64,000 nucleotides of DNA from Chlamydiota bacterium (GTDB lineage: Bacteria > Chlamydiota > Chlamydiia > Chlamydiales > Parachlamydiaceae), in NCBI GenBank assembly GCA_013287915.1, contig JABDCX010000006.1, positions 1 through 64,000 on the forward strand. The letters are read 5' to 3'. Positions 13,186-26,734 of this stretch are shown one piece after another. Below the pieces are notes generated by a model, which worked only from the letters and a program-made list of their open reading frames with translations, was not told where the DNA came from and ran no database searches. Every line of letters begins with the position of its first letter. Position 1 is the stretch's first letter. The translations under genes were made by a program, and so were the position numbers.

Positions 13186-15243
13186 ATGTTCGAGCTGTCC
13201 ATTGCACGTCGGTATCTGTTTCCCCGTTGGCGTCAAATTTCCGTTTCAATCATCAGCATCCTGTCTACCCTTGTGATCGCTTTAGTCGTGTGGCTGATCG
13301 TCGTCTTCTTCTCTGTCAAAGACGGCCTTGAGTCTGGTTGGATCAATACCATCGTTGCGCTCACGGCGCCTGTCCGCGTCACTCCAACTGAGCACTACTT
13401 CAAATCGTACTACTACTTAGCCGACACGATCAGCAACAGCTCAAACTACACAGTCAAGACGCTTGCAGAAAAAAAAGACGCGCCCCTCACCGATCCCTAC
13501 AACCCCGAAGAAGATGAGGAGATCCCCTCGTTTTGGCCACATCCCGATCGCTTGCCAGACGGCTCTTTGATCGACCCTGTCAAACAGGCCTTTGCTCTTG
13601 CAAGCAGTTTGCCCGGAGAAAGCCGCCTCTCTGTTTCTGACTACGAAACGGCTGTTGCAAACCTCACTATCCATTTAGACGCGCTCCATGCGGTCACTTC
13701 CAATACGGCGCAAAGACAAACGCTTGAACAGGTGGTTTACCTAGGTAGTCTAGATCCTTCGGCTCGCGCCGTCTCCCGCATTTTGTTGCCCCCTGCCGCT
13801 CCTGATGTCGCGCATATGCTCAACCAATTGTTGGCCACGCACCCTTCTGCCGAACAACTATTGGCCTTTTTCAACGCCTTTCAAATTACAGAGCTCCAAA
13901 CACCCACAGCAGGATGGAAGCTGCCTCCACTACTCCTCCCCTCTCAAGCCCGCTGGAAGGGGATATTTCTCCCTCATTACAGAGGAGGCAACAGGCTCTT
14001 CGTTCCCGTAGAGAGCAATAATACCCACACCCTCCTAATCAAATTTCAAAAGAGCGGTATCGCAGCAGAAGCAGTCGATATCGCAATTGAGAACGGACAA
14101 GTTTCTTTTGCAACTGCTACAGAAAACTTCAAATTTTCGATCAACGACATTCCCCTTTTTCTGGAAGGAGATGTGACGATACCAGCCTCTATAGCGAAAG
14201 AGCATCTCAAAGAGACCTCTCATCTAGGCGACATTCCCGTCTCGGCCAAACTATTAATCCAGGGAAGCGAGCTCAATGGAGAAATTCGCTTAAATTCCCT
14301 CCCCATTGCAGCAATTGTGCCAAGCCGTTCAAACGGCTGGAGTGGGATTGTCAATGTCTCGCCTAAACAAGAAGCTCTCCTTTGGCCCAGCAACAGCTCG
14401 ATGACCTCCCCCATCTTGCTTCCCAAAGTCTTTAAAGAAGCGGGCGCTCTCATTGGCGATAAAGGCTATTTGACCTACTACTCACCAACCCCTAGTGCTG
14501 TGCAAGAGCAAAGAATCCCCGTTTTCATCGCAGGCTTCTACGACCCAGGAATCATGCCGATCGGCAGCAAGTACGTCATCGGCCCTAAAACGCTTGTCTC
14601 AGAAGTGCACGGCGCTATTCCCAACGAACAAGCCACTTTCAGCAATGGAATCAACATCCGCTTCGATGACTTTAAAAATGCCCCGCATGTCAAAAACCAG
14701 CTCAAAGAAGCGTTTGAGGCCGCAGGCATTGCTCCCTACTGGAAAATCGAAACTTACCAAGAATTCGAATACACAAAAGACCTCATCCAACAGCTCAGCA
14801 GCGAAAAAAACCTCTTTTCCCTCATCTCGTTGATCATCATCATCGTCGCATGCTCTAATATCATCTCCATGTTGATTATCCTCGTGAACGATAAAAAAAT
14901 TGAAATCGGGATCCTCCGTTCAATGGGAGCTACGTGGGCACATATCGCCACAATCTTTGGATTCTGCGGCATGGTCATTGGAGCCCTGGGCAGCCTGATT
15001 GGCATCGGAGCTTCCATTTTGACGCTGCACTACATCAATGAACTTGTCGATTTCTTAGGTCGCCTCCAAGGGTACGACCTATTCAATCCAGTTTATTACG
15101 GATCGGTCCTGCCCACCCAACTGAGCGTAGAGGCGTTGGCTTTGGTATTTGTCGCAACGGCGATCATCTCCCTTTTGGCAGGAATGGTACCGGCGATTAA
15201 AGCCAGCTTACTGCGTCCTTCAGCCATCTTACGAGCGGAGTAG
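13186..15243 (+). CDS. lolC: Lipoprotein-releasing ABC transporter permease (LolC/LolE-type)
   Basis: 685 residues. One membrane segment near 20-45 (ISVSIISILSTLVIALVVWL) and three near the C-terminus (about 555-680) give the MacB/FtsX permease topology. The region between, about 500 residues, should lie in the periplasm and is far larger than in E. coli LolC or LolE (about 400 residues in total). With LolD it would extract lipoproteins from the inner membrane for delivery outward. GGAGGGTTATAG precedes the ATG. It is the only permease here, so the complex may be a homodimer (inference). Confidence 0.88.
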   Translation: MFELSIARRYLFPRWRQISVSIISILSTLVIALVVWLIVVFFSVKDGLESGWINTIVALTAPVRVTPTEHYFKSYYYLADTISNSSNYTVKTLAEKKDAPLTDPYNPEEDEEIPSFWPHPDRLPDGSLIDPVKQAFALASSLPGESRLSVSDYETAVANLTIHLDALHAVTSNTAQRQTLEQVVYLGSLDPSARAVSRILLPPAAPDVAHMLNQLLATHPSAEQLLAFFNAFQITELQTPTAGWKLPPLLLPSQARWKGIFLPHYRGGNRLFVPVESNNTHTLLIKFQKSGIAAEAVDIAIENGQVSFATATENFKFSINDIPLFLEGDVTIPASIAKEHLKETSHLGDIPVSAKLLIQGSELNGEIRLNSLPIAAIVPSRSNGWSGIVNVSPKQEALLWPSNSSMTSPILLPKVFKEAGALIGDKGYLTYYSPTPSAVQEQRIPVFIAGFYDPGIMPIGSKYVIGPKTLVSEVHGAIPNEQATFSNGINIRFDDFKNAPHVKNQLKEAFEAAGIAPYWKIETYQEFEYTKDLIQQLSSEKNLFSLISLIIIIVACSNIISMLIILVNDKKIEIGILRSMGATWAHIATIFGFCGMVIGALGSLIGIGASILTLHYINELVDFLGRLQGYDLFNPVYYGSVLPTQLSVEALALVFVATAIISLLAGMVPAIKASLLRPSAILRAE

Positions 15244-15245
15244 TG

Positions 15246-15923
15246 ATGAAAAAACATCCCCAAATCCTCCAAGCGTGCAACATCCACAAACGGTTCAAAA
15301 AGCCTCTCGATCTTTACTTACTCAAAGGGATCGACCTGACGGTGAAACGGGGCGAATCGGCAGCGATTGTCGGCAAATCGGGGCAAGGAAAAAGCACCCT
15401 TCTCCATATCCTTGGCACGCTGGAATCCTCGACCACTGGAGATCTTCTCATCGGAGGAGAAAAGGTCTCCTTCATCAACAAGAGTCGCATTCGCAACAAG
15501 CAGCTCGCGTTTATTTTCCAATCGTTCCACTTGTTCGAAGATTTCTCCGTTCTCGACAACATTTTGATGCCTGCTAAAATCGCTCGTCAGGACACGCATC
15601 CTGGATCAGACGCGCATCAAAAAGCCATGGAAGACCTAGTGGCAGTCGGCCTTGAAAAACGTGCCCATTTCCATGCGAAGCTGCTGTCTGGTGGAGAAAA
15701 GCAACGCGTCGCTATTGCTAGAGCCCTTTGCAATGATCCAGACTTAATTTTTGCAGATGAACCTACGGGCAATTTGGACGACGAAACTTCCGCGCAAATC
15801 CAAGAGCTGCTCCTTAACTGTGTGAAAAAAAACAACAAAGCACTCGTAGTAGTTACCCACGACACCGCTTTCGCTAATAAGTGCCACACCTGCTACAACC
15901 TGGAAAATGGGATCCTGTTGTAA
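15246..15923 (+). CDS. lolD: Lipoprotein-releasing ABC transporter ATPase
   Basis: A 225-residue ABC ATPase with Walker [11 protein letters not shown]-loop [14 protein letters not shown], signature [15 protein letters not shown], Walker [14 protein letters not shown] and switch histidine VVTHD. It belongs to the LolD/MacB branch by size and signature. It starts two bases after the permease stop (ATG 15246; an overlapping GTG at 15243 is less likely), so the two form one transcription unit that supplies energy for lipoprotein release. Confidence 0.94.
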
Positions 15924-15991
15924 GAGTCTTTCCTTTTTTCTTTCCTCGAAATCTCTGAATCTGCTAATGTTAATACTTCCTCACGCGGTAT

Positions 15992-16066
15992 CGGAGCATA
16001 GCGCAGTTTGGCTAGCGCGGCTGCTTTGGGAGCAGTAGGTCGGGGGTTCAAATCCCTCTGCTCCGA
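15992..16066 (+). tRNA. tRNA-Pro (anticodon TGG)
   Basis: A full cloverleaf can be folded: acceptor CGGAGCA with TGCTCCG, D-loop GCGCAGTTTGGCTAGCGC, anticodon stem GCTGC/GCAGT with loop TTTGGGA (anticodon TGG), and T-arm GGGGGTTCAAATCCCTC. CCA is not encoded. It lies between lolD and lgt and is followed at once by a terminator hairpin. Confidence 0.97.
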
Positions 16067-16079
16067 TCCTTTTTTATCC

Positions 16080-16110
16080 GCTCCTATCTCCGTTGGGATA
16101 GGAGCTTTTT
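16080..16110 (+). terminator. Terminator after tRNA-Pro, overlapping the lgt ribosome site
   Basis: GCTCCTATC (16080-16088) pairs perfectly with GATAGGAGC (16097-16105), followed by TTTTT. This is a good intrinsic terminator for the tRNA. The 3' arm contains AGGAG, the only ribosome-binding site for lgt, whose ATG is at 16112. Confidence 0.85.
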
Positions 16111-16111
16111 A

Positions 16112-16990
16112 ATGAACCACTTAATTCCACTTTCTTGGATCTATTGGGATCCGCCCAAAGAAGCTTTTACCATTCCAGGGATCAACCTTTCCGTTGCCTG
16201 GTACGGCATCTTATTTGCGGTTGGTTTTTTGCTCGCCTATTGGATGATCATCCCGATCTTTCGGCAGTTTATCCTGGAACATCACTCTAAACTCTCTCGA
16301 CCAGCTGCAACCGCTATGGCGACCCAGGCAGCTGACACCCTCATGTTGTACGCTGTCATTGGGACAGTGATTGGGGCGCGATTAGGGCACATGCTCTTCT
16401 ACGATTTCTCACTCTTCATCCACCATCCTCTCGAATTTTTTATGATTCGCCATGGAGGCCTAGCCAGCCATGGAGGTACTGTCGGGGTGATGATTGCGAT
16501 CATTTTCTTTTTAAAACGGATCCAAAAGAAGTCTCTACCCGAGCTGACTTATATTGACCTTCTCGACATCATGGTCATCCCCACCGCAATTGTTGCGTGC
16601 TGCATCCGCCTGGGCAATTTTATCAACCAAGAGATTCTAGGAACGGCCACCTCACTGCCTTGGGGGATCATTTTTGGTCATCCCGGCGATGCCTCCACAC
16701 CCATCCCGCGCCACCCTGCCCAGCTGTACGAAGCCCTTCTCTATGCCGCAACATTTGCGATCTTGTTCACTCTTTGGTACAAAGCTAAAGATTCTTTGAA
16801 AAAGGGGACCCTCAGTGGTCTTTTTTTCATCTTTGTGTTTGGAGGACGTTTCCTGATCGAATTCGTCAAGGAACCTCAAGGAGGTATTTTCGATGAATCG
16901 TTCCTCCAGGTTGGACAATACTTGAGCATCCCCTTCATCCTGCTCGGCATCTATCTCCTGTGCTTACAACCAAAAAAAACTCTCCGCTAA
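16112..16990 (+). CDS. lgt: Prolipoprotein diacylglyceryl transferase
   Basis: A 292-residue integral membrane protein with seven predicted membrane segments. Lgt moves diacylglycerol from phosphatidylglycerol to the lipobox cysteine of prelipoproteins. The signature region RHGGLASHGG (about residue 112-121) with the essential histidine, the IRLGNFINQEI motif and the RHPAQLYEA segment are all present. Its substrates in this window include the MORN-type lipoprotein and the RND adaptor. The ribosome site AGGAG is inside the upstream terminator hairpin, so read-through and hairpin opening may control expression. Confidence 0.95.
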   Translation: MNHLIPLSWIYWDPPKEAFTIPGINLSVAWYGILFAVGFLLAYWMIIPIFRQFILEHHSKLSRPAATAMATQAADTLMLYAVIGTVIGARLGHMLFYDFSLFIHHPLEFFMIRHGGLASHGGTVGVMIAIIFFLKRIQKKSLPELTYIDLLDIMVIPTAIVACCIRLGNFINQEILGTATSLPWGIIFGHPGDASTPIPRHPAQLYEALLYAATFAILFTLWYKAKDSLKKGTLSGLFFIFVFGGRFLIEFVKEPQGGIFDESFLQVGQYLSIPFILLGIYLLCLQPKKTLR

Positions 16991-17116: not shown

Positions 17117-20100
17117 ATGTCTGTCCAACTTAACAATTTTTCCATCTCAGCCGGACTTAACTTTTTTGCCAAGCAGGCTGTTCATGCAGCAGACAGATTA
17201 ACCGAGCTTACCTTTCATGTTCTAGACGGGACGACAACGAGCCTTGGACGATTGGTGCCCGATTTCCGACCAAAGTCGGTGGGGGACGTGGTGCTTCAAA
17301 CAAAGAACACCGGAAGCGCTTTGTTCGACACCCCTGAAGGGGATGTTTTGATCGAGATCACCCAAAATGAACAAGGACGATATACGTTCCTGGCGACAGG
17401 AGAGGATTTAGAGCCGGTAATCTTTGCTGAAGGAAAAAAGAAGACAAGTCGTGCTGTTTGGGAAGTGATGGTGTCAACCTATTTGCAAAAGATTGTAGGC
17501 AGCTCATCACGGGTTGATTATGGGGTGAGTGCCAGCCGTTGGACGGGAGAGAAGTTTGCGGACCTTAAGGAGAAATATTCGGCGGAAGGCCTTTTGCGCA
17601 AAAAGGGTGACGAGGTGATACTGAAATTGCCTGATGAACCTTTGATGACTTTCAAGGGTCCTCAGGCCAACTTGAAGGCTAAGATTGTATTAAAGCACTT
17701 CTATCAAAGTCGAAAAACACCAATGGAAGAGGAGCAATCGAAGCATTGGGATTTTCTGAACCGCTTGTTTATCGGTTACCTTTATTTTTCTGGATATGCG
17801 TTAGCTCCTTGGGTAAATGATCATGTCCTGCTACCCCACCAAAGAACCCAAATAGCAGAAGAAAAGGCGCAACGGATGACTGCAGATGGTTATTTGGATG
17901 AGCATGAGTTGAGGGAAATGGCGCAAAACCCAATATTGCGCCAGCATGTGACTGACATGGCAGAGGCGCAAGCAGATGGCGGTGATGCCACACTTCTTTC
18001 TCAACTAGAAAATGTCACCTTTCAACCAAACGGCTACACACAAACTTACGAATACGATGGAAAAAGTTATAAAGATAGCCATGCGTTTTCAACGGAAAAA
18101 GAGACTCACAGCCGCAAGATTTGCCCAAAGGAGGGCTATTGCGAAGAGTTCATCACAGAAAAAAGCAAAACCACTCTCACCTATACGCAAAAAAAATATG
18201 GCGAAGACAAAATCGACGTACAAACAGCGTCCTTCAAAAAAGATGGAGATGAATGGAAGTTAGTCAGGAAAGAGGAATATGAGGAAGCCCGCGTCTTTAA
18301 GCTAGCCGATAGAAGTTTTGCATCGACAATATTCGAGCAATCCAGGCAGATTGCTGTCAAAACTGCGACGGCATGCGTTGCCGCAGCATTGACAGGGCAT
18401 AATCCAAAAATAGCCGTGCTCGCTTCCTTGTTTACAGTCGTCAGCCGTTCTCGTGGGATTGCTGTGCTACCACCCGTATCAGAAACGCATCAAGTCAAGG
18501 AAATCAAGTCTGGTCCGGGAAATTCCATGATGAGAAAAACCGCGCCAATCACCTTGCTCAATCCTTTGCCGAACCTTTCCGTTGAGCCGGGTTCCGCGCT
18601 TAATTACCTCATCAATTTACCGTCCTATTGCCAGCTGTCCAGCCCGAATGCAAACCTAGAGCTTTCAATTCAACAAGCAAGTGGCGCACCGGCCCCTAGC
18701 TGGATTTCAATGAACATGGGTGACATTACGTTTGATAGTTCGCTGTATTTGGGTCCGCATACTTCTTATAATGTCTATGTTTCAGGCAAATATGCTTATG
18801 TTGGAACGTCTGGTGGTATTATAGTTGTCGATATCAGCAATCCAACTAGTCCTTCAGCAGTGGGTTCATTTCCGTTGACAGGGGGGCCACAACTCGTATT
18901 TGTGAGTGGAAATTATGCTTACATAACTAGTGTAGGACAAAGTTTCTCGTATGTGGTTGATGTCTCAAATCCCTCAAATCTTACTTTGGTAGATACTGTC
19001 AATGCTGGAAGTCATACTTTTCAACAAATGTCTGGCGCTGGTAATTATTTGTACTTCGCAGAGGAAGATATCACTTATCGCTCTAGTTTAAATATATCGA
19101 GTCTTAGCAATCCGGTATCCCCGGCTCAAATTGGTTCATTGGGCGGTCTTGTTTTCAATAGTCCAATACTGACTGTTGTGGGTGATTATGTTTTCCTAAG
19201 TGTACTACAAGACGTAACCGTTTTACCAGCTTGTGCCATGGTTAATGTCAGTGTACCATCAAAACCTGTTCTGATTACAACAATTCCACTAACAGGTGAT
19301 TTTAGCTCAGCTTCCATGAAAGGAAATTACCTTTTTATAACAGCACAGGGGGTGTTAAACATTTACAATCTCACTACCGTTTCTAATCCCGTCTTAGTTC
19401 AAAGCATTTATGTTCACTCAATTGGTGCAATGCATTTAGATGGAAATTATCTTTATATATCGGGATATCCAGGCGTAACAGTCATCGATATCACAAATCC
19501 GCTTATGCCAAAAATAGTCAAATCTATTTCCACTCCTGGAGGTATTTCTAATGAATTATTTGTTAGCGGTAACAACATTTTTGTTGCGGATAATCTAGCA
19601 GGGCTTACGATTTTCAACGCACAGCAAAGAGTTTTATCCGGAACGCCACAAGCATCAGATCGCGGTTTGTTGCTTTTGAATGTGACTGCTACGAATGATG
19701 TTGGCGATACCCTTGTGGATTCGATAGCCGTTCATGTGGGCGATATTAACGTTGCCATACCCATACCCAACCAGCAGGTGTATGTGGGTAATTCGATCAC
19801 GCTCACTCTCCCTGAAGGGACATTTGAATTCCCCAACGCAAATTTCACCTATTCTGCCGGATTAGCTGGAGGATTTCCATTACCTTCCTGTATCACCTTT
19901 GATTCAGCCACGCGCACATTCCAGTGCACACCGCGCTCAGGAGATCAGAATACATATGTCATACAAGTAGCAGGTGATGATGGCCATGGGGGAATAGTTT
20001 CGACGACATTTGGTTTAACCGTAATCGATGGAACGAAATACGCCCCGGTCGTACTCAATCCATTACCCGACGCGCCCGCAACCGTTGGCGTTCCATTTTT

Positions 20101-21019
20101 TATGCAAATTCCGGCGGACACCTTTAAAGATCTCAATGGTGAGCAATTGACAATCACCGTGAACCAAGGTGGTGGTATGCCGCTTCCTCAATGGCTGAAA
20201 TGGAATCCGAAATTGCTAACTTTATCCGGGACACCAGGTCCTTTCGACACCAACACGTATGCGGATCGAATAGTCACTATTAACGTATGGGGAAAAGATA
20301 ATGATGGTAGCGCCAAGACCAGTTTCACAATCTCTGTCGGAGGTGAATCCTTTTGGGCAGCATTTATAAAAATTGGATTTGGCACAGCATCAGCAGTGGG
20401 TACTGCTTATGGGCTGTGGAAGGAAAGAGCGTTGATTTGGAATTACCTTTGCAAGAAAAAATATAGAGGTGAGCCTGAAAAAGCCATTGTGAATCAACAC
20501 TATAGCCATGTAATAAAACTTGAACGCAAAAAGGTGAAAGAGATTACTGTATTTTCGGGCGGCAAGCCTTTGCCACAATTGAAACCCTTACCGGATGGTC
20601 TGAGTTATAAGTTTGGTGAGCTAAGCGGCACTCCAACTGATTCTGGCGACAAGCCTTTGCCACAATTGAAACCCTTACCGGATGGTCTGAGTTATGAGTT
20701 TGGTGAGCTAAGCGGCACTCCAACTGGTAAAGATTTAGGCCGCTTTATCGTACGTGTCTTTGATCATGATGGATATATCTATGAAGAATTTGATTTGATC
20801 ATCAAGAAGAGTGAAAGCGATTCTGACCCTGATCCGGAAGATCAGTTCTCTTGTATTGAAGCAATAAGGAAAATGATCTTTCATCCTTTTGTTTCTGGTT
20901 CACCAAGGAGAGACGGTGACGAGGAAGGTGGAAAGGGTTGCTTAGGCAGGGTAAAAAAACATCTACCCACAGAATTTCCCATGAGAAATTTAAGAAAGCA
21001 TGAAAGCGACAATACATAA
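17117..21019 (+). CDS. Large surface-type protein: LVIVD propeller within Ig-like domains
   Basis: 1300 residues, no known family over the full length. Residues 1-410 are lineage-specific, with no classical signal peptide; a hydrophobic stretch lies near 415-450. From about 474 an Ig-like (He_PIG) domain begins, reads up to PSWISMN (about 528), is interrupted at about 548-835 by seven repeats of the LVIVD type (GNYLYISG ... VIDITNP), and resumes with RVLSGTP. Two further Ig-like domains follow (about 880-975 and 977-1075), then a membrane segment near 1080-1105. A final Ig-like tail has a 29-residue tandem duplication (1149-1206), and the C-terminus is charged. Such domains are usually extracellular and adhesive; a surface role is inference. 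Confidence 0.85.
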   Translation: MSVQLNNFSISAGLNFFAKQAVHAADRLTELTFHVLDGTTTSLGRLVPDFRPKSVGDVVLQTKNTGSALFDTPEGDVLIEITQNEQGRYTFLATGEDLEPVIFAEGKKKTSRAVWEVMVSTYLQKIVGSSSRVDYGVSASRWTGEKFADLKEKYSAEGLLRKKGDEVILKLPDEPLMTFKGPQANLKAKIVLKHFYQSRKTPMEEEQSKHWDFLNRLFIGYLYFSGYALAPWVNDHVLLPHQRTQIAEEKAQRMTADGYLDEHELREMAQNPILRQHVTDMAEAQADGGDATLLSQLENVTFQPNGYTQTYEYDGKSYKDSHAFSTEKETHSRKICPKEGYCEEFITEKSKTTLTYTQKKYGEDKIDVQTASFKKDGDEWKLVRKEEYEEARVFKLADRSFASTIFEQSRQIAVKTATACVAAALTGHNPKIAVLASLFTVVSRSRGIAVLPPVSETHQVKEIKSGPGNSMMRKTAPITLLNPLPNLSVEPGSALNYLINLPSYCQLSSPNANLELSIQQASGAPAPSWISMNMGDITFDSSLYLGPHTSYNVYVSGKYAYVGTSGGIIVVDISNPTSPSAVGSFPLTGGPQLVFVSGNYAYITSVGQSFSYVVDVSNPSNLTLVDTVNAGSHTFQQMSGAGNYLYFAEEDITYRSSLNISSLSNPVSPAQIGSLGGLVFNSPILTVVGDYVFLSVLQDVTVLPACAMVNVSVPSKPVLITTIPLTGDFSSASMKGNYLFITAQGVLNIYNLTTVSNPVLVQSIYVHSIGAMHLDGNYLYISGYPGVTVIDITNPLMPKIVKSISTPGGISNELFVSGNNIFVADNLAGLTIFNAQQRVLSGTPQASDRGLLLLNVTATNDVGDTLVDSIAVHVGDINVAIPIPNQQVYVGNSITLTLPEGTFEFPNANFTYSAGLAGGFPLPSCITFDSATRTFQCTPRSGDQNTYVIQVAGDDGHGGIVSTTFGLTVIDGTKYAPVVLNPLPDAPATVGVPFFMQIPADTFKDLNGEQLTITVNQGGGMPLPQWLKWNPKLLTLSGTPGPFDTNTYADRIVTINVWGKDNDGSAKTSFTISVGGESFWAAFIKIGFGTASAVGTAYGLWKERALIWNYLCKKKYRGEPEKAIVNQHYSHVIKLERKKVKEITVFSGGKPLPQLKPLPDGLSYKFGELSGTPTDSGDKPLPQLKPLPDGLSYEFGELSGTPTGKDLGRFIVRVFDHDGYIYEEFDLIIKKSESDSDPDPEDQFSCIEAIRKMIFHPFVSGSPRRDGDEEGGKGCLGRVKKHLPTEFPMRNLRKHESDNT
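20564..20726 (+). repeat. 87-bp tandem duplication inside the large surface-type gene
   Basis: Bases 20564-20639 recur at 20651-20726 with a period of 87 bases (29 codons) and a single substitution that changes Lys to Glu. The unit encodes KPLPQLKPLPDGLSY and the LSGTPT end of an Ig-like half-domain. Near-identity means the duplication is recent. Confidence 0.9.
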
Positions 21020-21150: not shown

Positions 21151-21300
21151 TTCCTCTCTGCGTTTTTGCAACTTTGCATTTAAATCATAATAGTAAATTA
21201 TTTTTTCTTTTAAGACTCTCAGACACAATGTCAATTTTTGTTTGATTTTTAATTGTCAAATCTAAGAAAATGTCCTCATCATCTTGTCGTGGTGGTTCTT

Positions 21301-22602
21301 ATGCAAATAAAATTCCTGTTTCTCTCGCTTCTGATCGCGACGGCTTCTTTAAGAGCAGCACCCAACATGGATCACCCGCTCACAATCTGCGAACTCGTCG
21401 ACATTGCCCTGGAAAACCATCCTGCAACAAAAAAAGCGTGGTGGAACGCCAACCGAGCTGCTTCTGCTTTGGGCTCTGCGAAAAGCGCCTACTATCCTCA
21501 AATCGATATGAGTGCCGATATCCGCAACGGCGTTGATTTTAAATTCATCAACGGTCCAGATACCTCTTACACCATTGTGGGAGCCAATCTCCTTCTTTCG
21601 ATGATGCTCTACGATTTTGGTCAAACAAGTGCAAACGTCAGTTCTGCCAAAATGGGTTTGCTTGCTGCTAACTGGCAAAACGATTGGACAATCCAAAAAG
21701 TGATGGTAAAGGTCTTGGAAAATGCCTATGGCACTCTCCACGCTCAAGAAACGTACGAAGCGTCCTTAAGCGCTCTCGCAGACGCGGCAAAAGTACTCGA
21801 AACCGCTCAAGAGCTGAACCGCGCGGGGTTAAGTCCCATCGCCGATGTGTACACGACGCAGTCGACCTACGCGGTCATGCACATGGACGTGATTCAACAA
21901 CGCGCACAACTCGAAATTCAGGTGGCAAAACTCGCTTCCAGCCTTGGATTATGCGCTACAACACTTCTAACGCTAGCGCCCTTTGATTCGTTGCCAGCTC
22001 CGACGTGCCAACAAACAGAGGCTTTGATCCAGTTGGCATTGGAGCAACGCGCAGATTTGATGGCGCAGCAGGCACGGGTCGCTGCCATGGCTTATAACCA
22101 AAAACGAACAACCGCTGCCAACTATCCCACAATTAGTTTTGCAGGAAGAGGCGGAGCAAACCACGCATTTCAAGACAACACAGAGGCGGGTCAATACATG
22201 GTCTCCTTGAACTTGGAAGTCCCGCTCTTTACTGGCTTTGAACTCATGTACAACAACCGACAAGCTTACGCGGATACACAGCTTACGTTAGAAGAGTGTG
22301 CCGAGCTGCAACTAGACATCGCTTTGGAAGTGTTAACTCATAGCCGAACTCTGCAGGCTGTCCAAGAAATGCTGCCAGATGCAGAAGCAAATTTAATCAG
22401 CTCTCAAAAAGCGTATGAAAGCACTTTAGAACGTTACAAAGCCGGTAAGGAAGGTATCGCAGAGGTGTCATTCAGCCAAAGACAACTCGCCGCAGCACGC
22501 GTCCGCTACAGCGAAGTGAAAACGCGCTGGCTAGTTTCGTTGGCCAATCTCGCTTATGCTACAGGGACGCTCAATCAAGACATGGAGTCATCATGCAATT
22601 AA
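21301..22602 (+). CDS. TolC-like outer-membrane efflux protein
   Basis: 433 residues from ATG 21301; the first about 20 (MQIKFLFLSLLIATASLRAA) form a signal peptide, which decides the start over an upstream TTG. Two TolC/OEP repeats are visible (LTICELVDIALENHPATKKAWWN and LIQLALEQRADLMAQQARV), with long helical stretches ending YKAGKEGIAEVSFSQRQLAAARVRY. It should form the outer-membrane channel of the tripartite pump encoded here. It overlaps the adaptor gene by 10 bases. No clear ribosome site is seen. Confidence 0.9.
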   Translation: MQIKFLFLSLLIATASLRAAPNMDHPLTICELVDIALENHPATKKAWWNANRAASALGSAKSAYYPQIDMSADIRNGVDFKFINGPDTSYTIVGANLLLSMMLYDFGQTSANVSSAKMGLLAANWQNDWTIQKVMVKVLENAYGTLHAQETYEASLSALADAAKVLETAQELNRAGLSPIADVYTTQSTYAVMHMDVIQQRAQLEIQVAKLASSLGLCATTLLTLAPFDSLPAPTCQQTEALIQLALEQRADLMAQQARVAAMAYNQKRTTAANYPTISFAGRGGANHAFQDNTEAGQYMVSLNLEVPLFTGFELMYNNRQAYADTQLTLEECAELQLDIALEVLTHSRTLQAVQEMLPDAEANLISSQKAYESTLERYKAGKEGIAEVSFSQRQLAAARVRYSEVKTRWLVSLANLAYATGTLNQDMESSCN

Positions 22603-23675
22603 AACCATTCATTTTTACAGGCATTGCTTGCGTCCTTCTTGCAGGCTGCGAAACTGGTCAAAACGGCCTTCAAAGAGCAGAGCCTCCCGCTATTCCCGTG
22701 GTTGCTGCGACTCCATCTGTCCAAGACATCACCGTCTACTTGGAATCAATTGGTACCCTCTTGGCCGCAGCCTCCGTGGAAATCCGCCCCCAAGCATCTG
22801 GCATGATTAAGGAAGTGTTTGTCGACGAAGGTCAGTGGGTCGAAAAAGGAACTCCTCTTTTTGAGATCGATGAAATGCCCTATTTGACGAAAGTCCAAGA
22901 AGCAGAAGCGCAGCTCAAAAGCGACGAAGCTGACTTGACAGTGGTGCAAAAAAAATTGACTCGTCTCCGCTCGTTAGTCGATAAGGATTACATCTCAAAA
23001 GCCGAGTGGGAAGGGCTCGAGGCTCAAGAAGAGAAGGCAAATGCTTCACTTCAACTCAATAAAGCCCGCTTAACCTATGCCAATATCGACCTTGCGCATT
23101 GCACAGTCCGCTCTCCCCTCAAAGGCCGCATTGGTGCCATCAACGCACTTGCAGGCGAAATCGTCGCAGCGGGACAAGCGGAGGCTCTCACAACAGTCAC
23201 CAACATAGATCCATTGATTGTGGAGTTTGCCCTTACCGAAAAGGAGTTTTCCTTGGTCCCTAAAGATCAATTGACAATGGAAGTGCAAGCAACGTGTTCA
23301 AAGGAGCCCTGCAAAACGGGTTCTATCACCTTTCTGGACAACGAATTTGATCCCAAAACTGGCCTGCTGTTAGTGCATGGCGTACTTGCAAACCCCGACT
23401 ACGACTTGCGCCCTGGTCAAACCGTACATGTCAAGATGCCTGTAGCTCTTCAAACCGACGTTCTCCTCATCCCTCAAAAAGCGATCCGCTATAGCCAACA
23501 AGGCCCTTTTGTCTATGTCGTGAAACCCGACATGAGCGTCACTGTGCGACAAGTAAAACTGGGCGCCGAACGCGGCTTGGATCAAATCATCCTGGAAGGA
23601 CTTGAATCCAGCGAACAAATCATTCTAGATGGCCACTTGAGGCTATCAGAAGGCACTAAGGTGGAGTTAAAATGA
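22593..23675 (+). CDS. RND efflux periplasmic adaptor (membrane fusion lipoprotein)
   Basis: 360 residues of the AcrA/MexA family. The signal ends in lipobox LLAGC (Cys about 20), so it is lipid-anchored. The biotinyl-lipoyl halves (VEIRPQASGMIKEVFVDEGQWVEKG near 60-85 and CTVRSPLKGRIGAINALAGEIVAAG near 170-195) flank a helical hairpin of about 80 residues. A beta-barrel and C-terminal domain follow (LRPGQTVHVKMPV, VLLIPQKAI). It joins the inner-membrane pump to the TolC-like channel. Both gene junctions overlap (10 bases upstream, ATGA downstream). Confidence 0.94.
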   Translation: MQLKPFIFTGIACVLLAGCETGQNGLQRAEPPAIPVVAATPSVQDITVYLESIGTLLAAASVEIRPQASGMIKEVFVDEGQWVEKGTPLFEIDEMPYLTKVQEAEAQLKSDEADLTVVQKKLTRLRSLVDKDYISKAEWEGLEAQEEKANASLQLNKARLTYANIDLAHCTVRSPLKGRIGAINALAGEIVAAGQAEALTTVTNIDPLIVEFALTEKEFSLVPKDQLTMEVQATCSKEPCKTGSITFLDNEFDPKTGLLLVHGVLANPDYDLRPGQTVHVKMPVALQTDVLLIPQKAIRYSQQGPFVYVVKPDMSVTVRQVKLGAERGLDQIILEGLESSEQIILDGHLRLSEGTKVELK

Positions 23676-26600
23676 ACTTATCTTCGCCCTTTATCAACCG
23701 TCCGGTCATGACCACATTTGTGATGCTCACGATCGTCCTTGCTGGATTGACAGCTCTGTCGCGCTTGCCTGTCAACGACCTGCCGACCATCGAACACCCG
23801 CACATCCACATCATGGCAGGATACACGGGAGCCAGCTCAGAAACTGTCCTCAACCAGGTCACGATCCCCCTCGAAAAAGAGCTCACTCACGTGAAAGGGG
23901 TGGAGGAAATGGCTTCGAAAAGCTCTCCAGGGATGTCGAATATTTCTCTTTCTTTTGACTTGTCAAAAGATATGGACGAAGCGGTACGCGATGTGCAAGC
24001 AGCCTTAAACCGAGCTGAGGCGCATCTGCCTAAAGACCTCGAACCTCGCCCCGCATATGAGCTGAAACAAGATTCGCAAGATCCGATCATGTGGTTCATG
24101 TTGACATCGGATGAGAAAACGATTGGAGAACTGCGCAGCTACACGGATGCCTTCATTCTACCGCGGCTAAGCAGGCTGGAGGGCGTTGCTCAAATTGTAG
24201 TATACGGCGCCAATAAATCGGTCTGGCTGCGCCTCAATCCTGAAATCATAGCAGCGCGTCAAATCGGATTTAACCAAGTGATGGATACCATTAGACAGCA
24301 CACCTCGCAAATGCCTCTTGGCACTATCCAAACAAGCATTAAGCGGTTATCGATTGAATTGTCGGGTACAATCCATGAAGCGAAAGAGCTCGCAAACTTG
24401 AAAATTGGCAACACGCCTGTTCGGATCAAAGACATTGGCGAAATTTCTGAAAAATCGGCACATGAACGGGAGTTCCATTTCGTCACGCCGAAAAAATCGT
24501 CGATCGCACTCATCCTGGGGGTACAAAAGGTAAGCGGTGGGAACACCGTTGCCATTGCAAAATCGGTCAGAGGCGTTTTGGATTCGATCAAGCAATCCCT
24601 TCCACCTACGATGCTGCTCCACCTGTGGTTTGATAAATCGGTCTGGATCGAAGAGTCTCTGCACGACGTCCAATGGTCGCTTCTCTTCTCCTTTATCCTG
24701 GTCGTGTTGGTCATCTACTTTAGTTTGGGACGCCTTGCGGAATCGATGATTTCCAGCGCAGCTCTTCCCCTCTCTTTGCTCGGAACCTGCATCATCATGT
24801 ATCTGGCCCACTTCAGCCTCGACCTGCTCTCCCTACTCGCCCTTACCTTGTCGGTAGGGTTTGTCGTCGACGACGCGATCGTCGTATTGGAGAACATTGT
24901 ACGCTGGCAAGAAAAGGGAAATTCCCCCCGTCAAGCAAGTTTGATCGGTTCTAAGCAGATTTGCTTTACCATTCTTTCGATGACGCTCTCTTTAGTGGCT
25001 GTATTCATTCCGCTCCTCTTTATGTCAGGAACGAATGGGCGCCTGTTTCGCGAATTTAGCATTACACTTGCAGTTGCGATCTTAGTCTCGGGCTTTATTT
25101 CCCTTTCACTCACTCCCATGCTGTGCAGCCGCTACCTAACAGCACATCGGGGGCAAAACAAGCTCCAGTATGCGATCGACAATGCAAATGCATGGGCGAT
25201 TGGTTTATATGGAAGAACGTTAAAAATCTGCCTGCGCTATCCTAAGTCAATCCTCTTGTTCGCTCTTTCGTGCATGGCAGCAACGGTTTTCCTCTTCTCG
25301 AAACTCCCCGTTAACCTCATCCCACCTGAAGATCGCGGTTTTTTCTTTACTGTCGTCAACTTACCAACGGGGATGGATTCGCCATCGATTGGGGCAAAAC
25401 AAAAAAAACTGGATCTCCTCGTTCAGCAAAACCGGAGCATCGAGAGTTTTCTTAGCTTAAATTTCGACGGCAATTTGTTGTATCTTGTCCGCTTACTTCC
25501 GATTTCCCAGCGGCCGCCTCAACAGCAGATCATTGGAGAGATCCAACAGCTGATGGATGCAATTCCCGGCACGATGACGTTCATTCAGCCCTATCAGCTC
25601 ATCAATCTCGATATCGACTTTGGCAATGCAGGACAATACGAATTGGTCGTGCGGGGGCTTGATTTCGATACCGTTGAGAAGGCGACAAATGACCTGACCA
25701 ATCTGTTAAAGACACATCCAGAAGTTACTTTTGCGCAGCACTCTCTCAAACACGACGCGCCCATGCTCACTCTGCATATCAACGAAGACCTGGCACACAA
25801 GCTCGGGTTTGATAAACAAAAACTTCAAGGGTTGTTGCAAAATGCATTTGGCCAAGCATCGGTTGGGACGTTGCAAAAAGGGGCAGAACAGGAGAACATT
25901 TACATGGAACTCCTTCCTGAATTTCAAAATTACACAGATGCTCCAGGCTCCCTCTACCTGACAACGGAAAGCGGCAATTTCGTCCCCTTTAAATCGTTGG
26001 CTACCTGGGAAGAAAAGCTGGGATCGCCTGACCTCGTGCGCAGAGAGCAATTACCTGCCGCAAGCATCCGCTTTTCGCTCTCAGACGGGATTGCTCCAAA
26101 CAAAGGCTTAGAACTCGTCGAGAACATTGCTCACAACCAATTGCCTGGCGATACTTCAGGGGGATTGGTAGGTTCTGCCAAACTCATCTCATCGACAATT
26201 CGCGATACGTTGCTGTTGTTGTTAGCAGCAGCTGTCGTCATGTATATCGTTTTGGGAATCTTATACGAAAGCTTCATCCATCCCCTGACGATCCTCTCCT
26301 CGATCCCCTTTGCTGGCTTAGGCGGGATTCTAACGCTCTTTCTCTTTGGCGAGCCTTTGTCGATCTTTAGTGCCGTGGGCTTCTTGCTCTTGATCGGGAT
26401 CGTCAAAAAGAACGGGATCATGATGGTCGACTACGCGATCGAAGCGCAAAAGGAAGGCAGCAATGCCGTCCAAGCGATTTACGACGCCTGCCTGATCCGA
26501 TTCCGGCCTATTATGATGACGACCGTAGCAGCCGTCATGGGCGCCGTCCCGATTGCAATTGGCTTTGGAGATGGCGCGGAGATGCGCAGAGGACTTGGCC

Positions 26601-26734
26601 TTGTGATTGTAGGCGGATTGCTCTTCTCACAGGTTCTCACGTTGTTTGTGACACCCATCATTTATCTAAGCTTTGAACAGCTCGCTGCAAAGCTTGGAAA
26701 AAACAAGCAAAGCTTGCCCGAGTTGGAAGGCTAA
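23672..26734 (+). CDS. RND multidrug efflux pump, AcrB family
   Basis: 1020 residues with the AcrB layout: one membrane segment at the N-terminus (SPFINRPVMTTFVML), a large periplasmic loop, six segments, a second large loop and five or six more. The proton-relay aspartates are present in GFVVDDAIVVLEN and the partner lysine in KKNGIMMVDYA. It drives proton-coupled export of small molecules; which ones cannot be read from sequence. It is the last gene of a TolC-adaptor-pump operon with overlapping starts and no local regulator gene. Confidence 0.95.
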   Translation: MNLSSPFINRPVMTTFVMLTIVLAGLTALSRLPVNDLPTIEHPHIHIMAGYTGASSETVLNQVTIPLEKELTHVKGVEEMASKSSPGMSNISLSFDLSKDMDEAVRDVQAALNRAEAHLPKDLEPRPAYELKQDSQDPIMWFMLTSDEKTIGELRSYTDAFILPRLSRLEGVAQIVVYGANKSVWLRLNPEIIAARQIGFNQVMDTIRQHTSQMPLGTIQTSIKRLSIELSGTIHEAKELANLKIGNTPVRIKDIGEISEKSAHEREFHFVTPKKSSIALILGVQKVSGGNTVAIAKSVRGVLDSIKQSLPPTMLLHLWFDKSVWIEESLHDVQWSLLFSFILVVLVIYFSLGRLAESMISSAALPLSLLGTCIIMYLAHFSLDLLSLLALTLSVGFVVDDAIVVLENIVRWQEKGNSPRQASLIGSKQICFTILSMTLSLVAVFIPLLFMSGTNGRLFREFSITLAVAILVSGFISLSLTPMLCSRYLTAHRGQNKLQYAIDNANAWAIGLYGRTLKICLRYPKSILLFALSCMAATVFLFSKLPVNLIPPEDRGFFFTVVNLPTGMDSPSIGAKQKKLDLLVQQNRSIESFLSLNFDGNLLYLVRLLPISQRPPQQQIIGEIQQLMDAIPGTMTFIQPYQLINLDIDFGNAGQYELVVRGLDFDTVEKATNDLTNLLKTHPEVTFAQHSLKHDAPMLTLHINEDLAHKLGFDKQKLQGLLQNAFGQASVGTLQKGAEQENIYMELLPEFQNYTDAPGSLYLTTESGNFVPFKSLATWEEKLGSPDLVRREQLPAASIRFSLSDGIAPNKGLELVENIAHNQLPGDTSGGLVGSAKLISSTIRDTLLLLLAAAVVMYIVLGILYESFIHPLTILSSIPFAGLGGILTLFLFGEPLSIFSAVGFLLLIGIVKKNGIMMVDYAIEAQKEGSNAVQAIYDACLIRFRPIMMTTVAAVMGAVPIAIGFGDGAEMRRGLGLVIVGGLLFSQVLTLFVTPIIYLSFEQLAAKLGKNKQSLPELEG

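Follow-up and report, generated by a model that had tools for sequence, protein, structure and literature searches.

The window analysed here is a stretch of 64,000 nucleotides from the genome of a Chlamydiota bacterium (1.8 Mb in 55 contigs, labelled G000 among the genomes compared). At 17117..21019 on the forward strand, which carries all of the features described below, the list of open reading frames, the translation and Pfam identify a gene for a 1300-residue protein, apparently a membrane protein with a nested propeller as its head. Pfam assigns it the LVIVD repeat (PF08309; 85.3 bits against a curated cut-off of 20.2, with four stretches above threshold) and the He_PIG Ig-like domain (PF05345; 88.7 bits in three stretches, of which residues 881-969 are the best). 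The source genome encodes four further full-length or near full-length paralogs, three on contig C3 and one on C10. By reading of the flanking frames, the neighbours (window 13186-16990 and 21253-26734) are LolC/E-like, LolD-like and Lgt-like genes and a TolC/MFP/RND efflux set.

The N-terminal region (aa 1-469; 17117..18523) matches no Pfam family over threshold and is found in no other of the 234 Chlamydiota genomes, being limited to the source genome. By reading, the start of the protein has no typical signal peptide. Toward the end of this region lies a hydrophobic segment, IAVLASLFTVVSRSRGIA (aa 432-449; 18410..18463), which is under the hydropathy cut-off in the window copy and over it in paralogs C3a and C3b; judged from sequence, it may be a membrane anchor or an internal signal-like sequence. 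In many of these proteins, paralogs and relatives included, a hydrophobic stretch followed by a small-x-small motif occurs just before the head, hundreds of residues from the N-terminus, and resembles an internal signal-peptide-like site. Three other large proteins of the source genome (L173, L174 and L175, on contigs C8, C12 and C4) have Ig domains and a membrane segment, and the C8 protein has its N-terminal domain in common with the window protein. An empty site, in the form of a paralog sharing this N-terminus but with its first Ig domain uninterrupted, was sought; the C8 paralog has a different, non-nested propeller-like region instead. At the end of contig C20, the 5' part of a paralog (L176, 1190-1630) may supply the start that is missing from the paralog cut at the beginning of contig C3 (L009, 1-3867).

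Following the N-terminal region are the first half of an Ig-like domain (aa 475-536; 18539..18724), running from strand A to the PSWIS strand, a seven-bladed LVIVD-type propeller (aa 537-835; 18725..19621), and the second half of the Ig-like domain (aa 836-877; 19622..19747), which holds its last three strands, from RVLSGTP to VHVGDI. The original prediction had proposed this nesting, with PSWISMN at about residue 528, VLSGTP at about residue 837 and seven LVIVD-type repeats between them. The motifs are indeed at residues 525-535 (PAPSWISMNMG) and 838-844 (RVLSGTP), and exactly seven blade motifs lie between them, starting at residues 557, 598, 642, 689, 736, 776 and 818. The limits first given for the module, 18535-19740, were right to within a few residues and can be improved to 18539-19747.

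To score the two halves, an HMM was built from the 22 intact Ig domains of the five source-genome paralogs (the window protein included), with the split copies excluded, and the pieces before and after each propeller were scored against it one by one. The piece on the N side of the window propeller matches positions 4-62 with 24.2 bits and the piece on the C side matches positions 54-94 with 18.9 bits, so that the two together cover the full He_PIG profile. The same division is seen in all five paralogs, the N pieces covering position 4 to 54-62 (18.6-27.7 bits) and the C pieces position 54 or 55 to 93-95 (16.1-25.4 bits), while the five propellers themselves score at most 0.8 bits. Among 2000 shuffles per piece, scores reached at most 6.3 bits for the window N piece, 7.0 bits for the window C piece and 10.7 bits over all pieces of the five paralogs; the best of 469 tiles of unrelated window proteins scored 7.3 bits. 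In the domain search for He_PIG halves that had been proposed with the prediction, Pfam He_PIG itself recognises the window C half alone at positions 54-95 (16.1 bits, E 0.016); it does not detect the window N half when that is scored on its own. The N halves of one paralog and of relatives do match Pfam He_PIG, at positions 1-61, and there the division is again at about position 55. The interruption falls at the tip of the hairpin that links the PxWLxF and LSGTP strands. Since the half-domain matches are complementary in all five paralogs and stand clear of the shuffle and tile controls, the splitting of a He_PIG Ig-like domain by the propeller is well supported, and the original observation is confirmed.

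A structure prediction over residues 470-880, the range originally suggested, is consistent with the same arrangement. The AlphaFold2 model, made with an alignment of 11 relatives, has a mean pLDDT of 88.8 and a pTM of 0.85, and a model of the more canonical relative L085 has a pLDDT of 90.7 and a pTM of 0.79. DSSP assigns 1 + 6x4 + 3 strands to the propeller part of the window model, at a pLDDT near 90. In model numbering (add 469 for the protein residue), Ig strands run up to 61-65 and are followed by a single strand at 69-74; on the C side, the propeller strands at 342-365 are followed by Ig strands at 368-373, 381-391 and 396-405. The ring is thus predicted to be sealed in its seventh blade, where one N-side strand (ITFDSS) joins three strands of the last repeat, and the LVIVD repeats are predicted to form a closed seven-bladed propeller; seven- and eight-bladed propellers were also what Foldseek matched in the PDB. 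The predicted chain ends leave the propeller side by side within the same blade, which in our reading would suit the tip of a hairpin as the site of insertion. We infer contact between the two Ig halves from the confidence of the model and its strand content. As the model is one confident unit with seven complete blades and Ig strands on both sides, it too supports nesting, and it answers indirectly the proposed check that the parts before and after the propeller join into one fold.

Two intact He_PIG domains follow the head, Ig-like domain 2 (19757..20023; 49.3 bits) and the membrane-proximal Ig-like domain 3 (20045..20338; 46.5 bits), both over the cut-off, and after them comes a predicted C-terminal transmembrane segment (aa 1079-1101; 20351..20419), a weakly hydrophobic stretch that hydropathy also finds at this place in each of the other four paralogs. 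This is the order that had been expected, two more Ig-like domains and then a membrane segment. Each of the other four paralogs has five intact Ig domains after the head where the window copy has two, so that the stalk varies in length and the head is retained. In Ig domain 2 of the window copy (window 19883-19933), cysteines at aa 925 and 937 are opposed across the hairpin and might form a disulfide.

We searched 234 Chlamydiota genomes with a profile of the entire module and found some match in 20 of them. Modules reaching both Ig halves are present in five (G000, G013, G017, G048 and G103) and fall into three families. The collected loci hold 43 modules reaching both ends, about 41 of them distinct; these counts rest on alignments that reach both ends, and the N-half alignments often run slightly into the propeller. 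The named relatives that carry the module are metagenome-assembled genomes (MAGs) designated 'Chlamydiae bacterium'. Loci L085, L250 and L260 each have two nested modules in tandem, which suggests that the composite is copied as one unit. Conservation of the split in about 41 modules and its duplication as a unit again support nesting. A variant may exist in G171 (L254:318-4409, forward strand): some 600 residues of repeats, double the length of the usual propeller, appear to lie within a single split Ig, and Cadherin_3 repeats come after it.

The LVIVD repeat is rare in the phylum, being over the Pfam cut-off in 7 of the 234 genomes. In 19 LVIVD-rich genomes from outside the Chlamydiota, none of the matches listed reaches the Ig halves. 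The one exception outside the phylum is a 3.9-kb contig of an 'Alphaproteobacteria' MAG, OFTM82, which resembles chlamydial genes of OFTM140 with about 67% DNA identity; because the two come from the same isolate series, the contig is likely to be taxonomically misassigned. A peptide-pattern scan with the five window paralogs recovered no relatives in genome contigs or viral contigs. The same scan with the G048 alignment recovered relatives in genome contigs and, among viral contigs, solely non-nested LVIVD proteins, and tblastn against phage records found nothing. The IMG/VR viral contigs L177 to L182 have LVIVD repeats without Ig halves, and in L177 the repeats lie behind an apparent phage tail-fibre N-terminal region. 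A tree of the propeller part does not group the nested modules as one clade: the largest pure nested clade holds 11 of 42, and the best split unites 26 nested modules with one non-nested sequence, although blade recombination and the short alignment limit this tree.

Some chlamydial proteins join such an ectodomain to a kinase. Two G035 proteins have a propeller-Ig ectodomain, then a transmembrane segment and then a Pfam Pkinase domain, an order in which the module would face the side where sensing takes place; in these proteins the profile detects the Ig C half alone, and the N half was read by eye. A non-nested LVIVD propeller protein of K940_chlam_7 (G069) also ends in a Pkinase domain. Receptor-kinase-like chlamydial proteins with a propeller or propeller-Ig ectodomain, and a Pfam protein kinase domain across the membrane segment from it, are found at L252:2305-6057 and L253:1509-5324 (both on the reverse strand) and at L033:742-3633 (forward strand).

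Taken together, these data are best explained by a membrane-anchored extracytoplasmic protein built as a head on a stalk, with a closed LVIVD propeller inserted in the hairpin tip of a He_PIG domain and binding outside the cytoplasm, to which we give a probability of about 0.72. The split domain, the propeller repeats, the Ig stalk and the conservation of the module are shown by the data above; the fold and the membrane topology are predictions from models, and the extracytoplasmic location and a function in binding or sensing are plausible extensions of them, as is a role as receptor or adhesin. On this explanation, one strand of the seventh blade would enter from the Ig strand before the propeller and three would leave into the following Ig strand, so that the ring would be sealed by its own ends and the propeller joined to the Ig domain by two strands. 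A head held by two strands should be unable to spin freely, and load on it would pass to the Ig domain; the double connection would keep the propeller in a fixed orientation relative to the stalk and could transmit strain to the membrane. The intact Ig-like domains would be the spacer between the head and the C-terminal membrane segment. The propeller face would most likely bind a partner outside the cytoplasm, whether on the host, on a neighbouring cell or in the bacterium's own envelope, and sensing is plausible for some members, given their kinase-tailed relatives.

Nesting itself could be questioned if an ordinary propeller merely stood between two separate Ig-like domains, each degenerate or truncated. 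Degenerate half-domains do occur in repeat proteins, and the C8 paralog and the K940_chlam_7 proteins show that a propeller-like region can be present without split Ig halves. We consider this explanation highly improbable, however, as the halves are complementary and not overlapping in five paralogs and about 41 modules, both are retained in tandem copies, the C half with its three strands cannot be an Ig fold alone, and AlphaFold2 is confident on both sides inside one unit (pTM 0.85). That the nested head is an enzyme or a metal-binding structure, and not a binding head, is suggested by the hydrolases found among PDB propellers of similar sequence, such as the haloalkylphosphorus hydrolase 5hrm, matched by profile with E 2.6e-8. 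This match spans about 107 positions, blades only, and no invariant catalytic set was seen. Blade sequences diverge widely among the paralogs, but the structural residues (G, Y, P, D) are retained, a pattern more in keeping with a scaffold whose surface changes than with a catalytic site, and an enzymatic head appears very unlikely.

The location of a nested binding head is a separate matter. Chlamydiae are intracellular, and the protein might be type III secreted and inserted in the inclusion membrane like an Inc protein, with the nested head in the lumen and the tails in the host cytosol. Hydrophobic segments flank the head on both sides, no N-terminal signal peptide is apparent by reading, and the kinase-bearing relatives could act in the host cytosol. 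The window protein nevertheless differs from Inc proteins in lacking their bilobed domain, the classic hydrophobic hairpin of two adjacent transmembrane helices, as some 630 residues separate its two segments, and a large beta-rich ectodomain would be an unusual cargo for the type III needle. We thus regard an Inc-like topology as unlikely and favor the membrane-anchored, stalked extracytoplasmic protein.

The component parts of this protein are known, and the arrangement of a propeller within an Ig domain is new. In a largely open-access body of papers on LVIVD, He_PIG, the insertion of propellers and Ig-like proteins of chlamydiae, we found no account of the nesting. With the LVIVD repeat proteins (PF08309, originally described in PMC2447325) the window protein shares the repeat sequence and the propeller, with Pfam matches above cut-off, but among the matches listed the propeller of the sampled non-chlamydial members is not set in an Ig domain. 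Both halves match the profile of the He_PIG or dystroglycan-type Ig domains (PF05345) and intact copies form the stalk, but in one copy about 300 residues intervene at the tip of a hairpin; alpha-dystroglycan 9c3c and 8uf4 gave weak profile matches. The closest known design, as an analogy, is the integrin beta subunit, whose hybrid domain carries the betaI domain as an insertion (PMC9856412) and must swing out for priming and outside-in signalling (PMC3857192). There, as we propose here, an Ig-like domain of a membrane receptor on a stalk hosts a globular domain that binds ligand, although the nested fold is betaI and not a propeller; we claim no homology, and the best 50 PDB matches from Foldseek include no integrin beta structure.

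A further parallel is found among giant viruses. Foldseek aligned the module over its whole length with a 'Putative Ig domain protein' of Pithovirus LCPAC404 (A0A481ZEV8, from BFVD; 426 columns, 22% identity, E 4.8e-27, rmsd 14.2), a protein from a giant virus metagenome bin in which nesting is a possibility raised by this structure alignment. Many beta-propeller and Ig-like proteins have been reported from another amoeba parasite, Babela massiliensis (PMC4378268), in passages that do not mention nesting. One might speculate that the Ig-nested propeller is a chlamydial invention, a mechanically coupled, integrin-betaI-like receptor head that serves stalked adhesins in some species and transmembrane kinases in others, exchanged with giant viruses in shared protist hosts, but we think this quite unlikely.

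Domain insertions that leave both folds intact are uncommon, and a large closed propeller set into the hairpin of an Ig domain, with the whole both conserved and duplicated as one unit, would be a clean natural case. The environmental chlamydiae would gain a lineage-specific family of large envelope proteins in which both head and stalk vary, such as one would expect where the bacteria meet their protist hosts, and the transmembrane kinase tails may offer a way to test for the use of receptor-like kinases by chlamydiae.

The C-terminal tail of the window protein (20420..21016), as read from the sequence, contains an Ig-like hairpin and a tandem duplication of recent origin and ends in a charged stretch; it has relatives in G048 and G013 proteins. 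The duplication is an in-frame repeat of 87 bp (window 20564-20737; 77 of 87 bases identical) that doubles an Ig-like hairpin, so that KPLPQLKPLPDGLSY occurs both at aa 1150 and at aa 1179.
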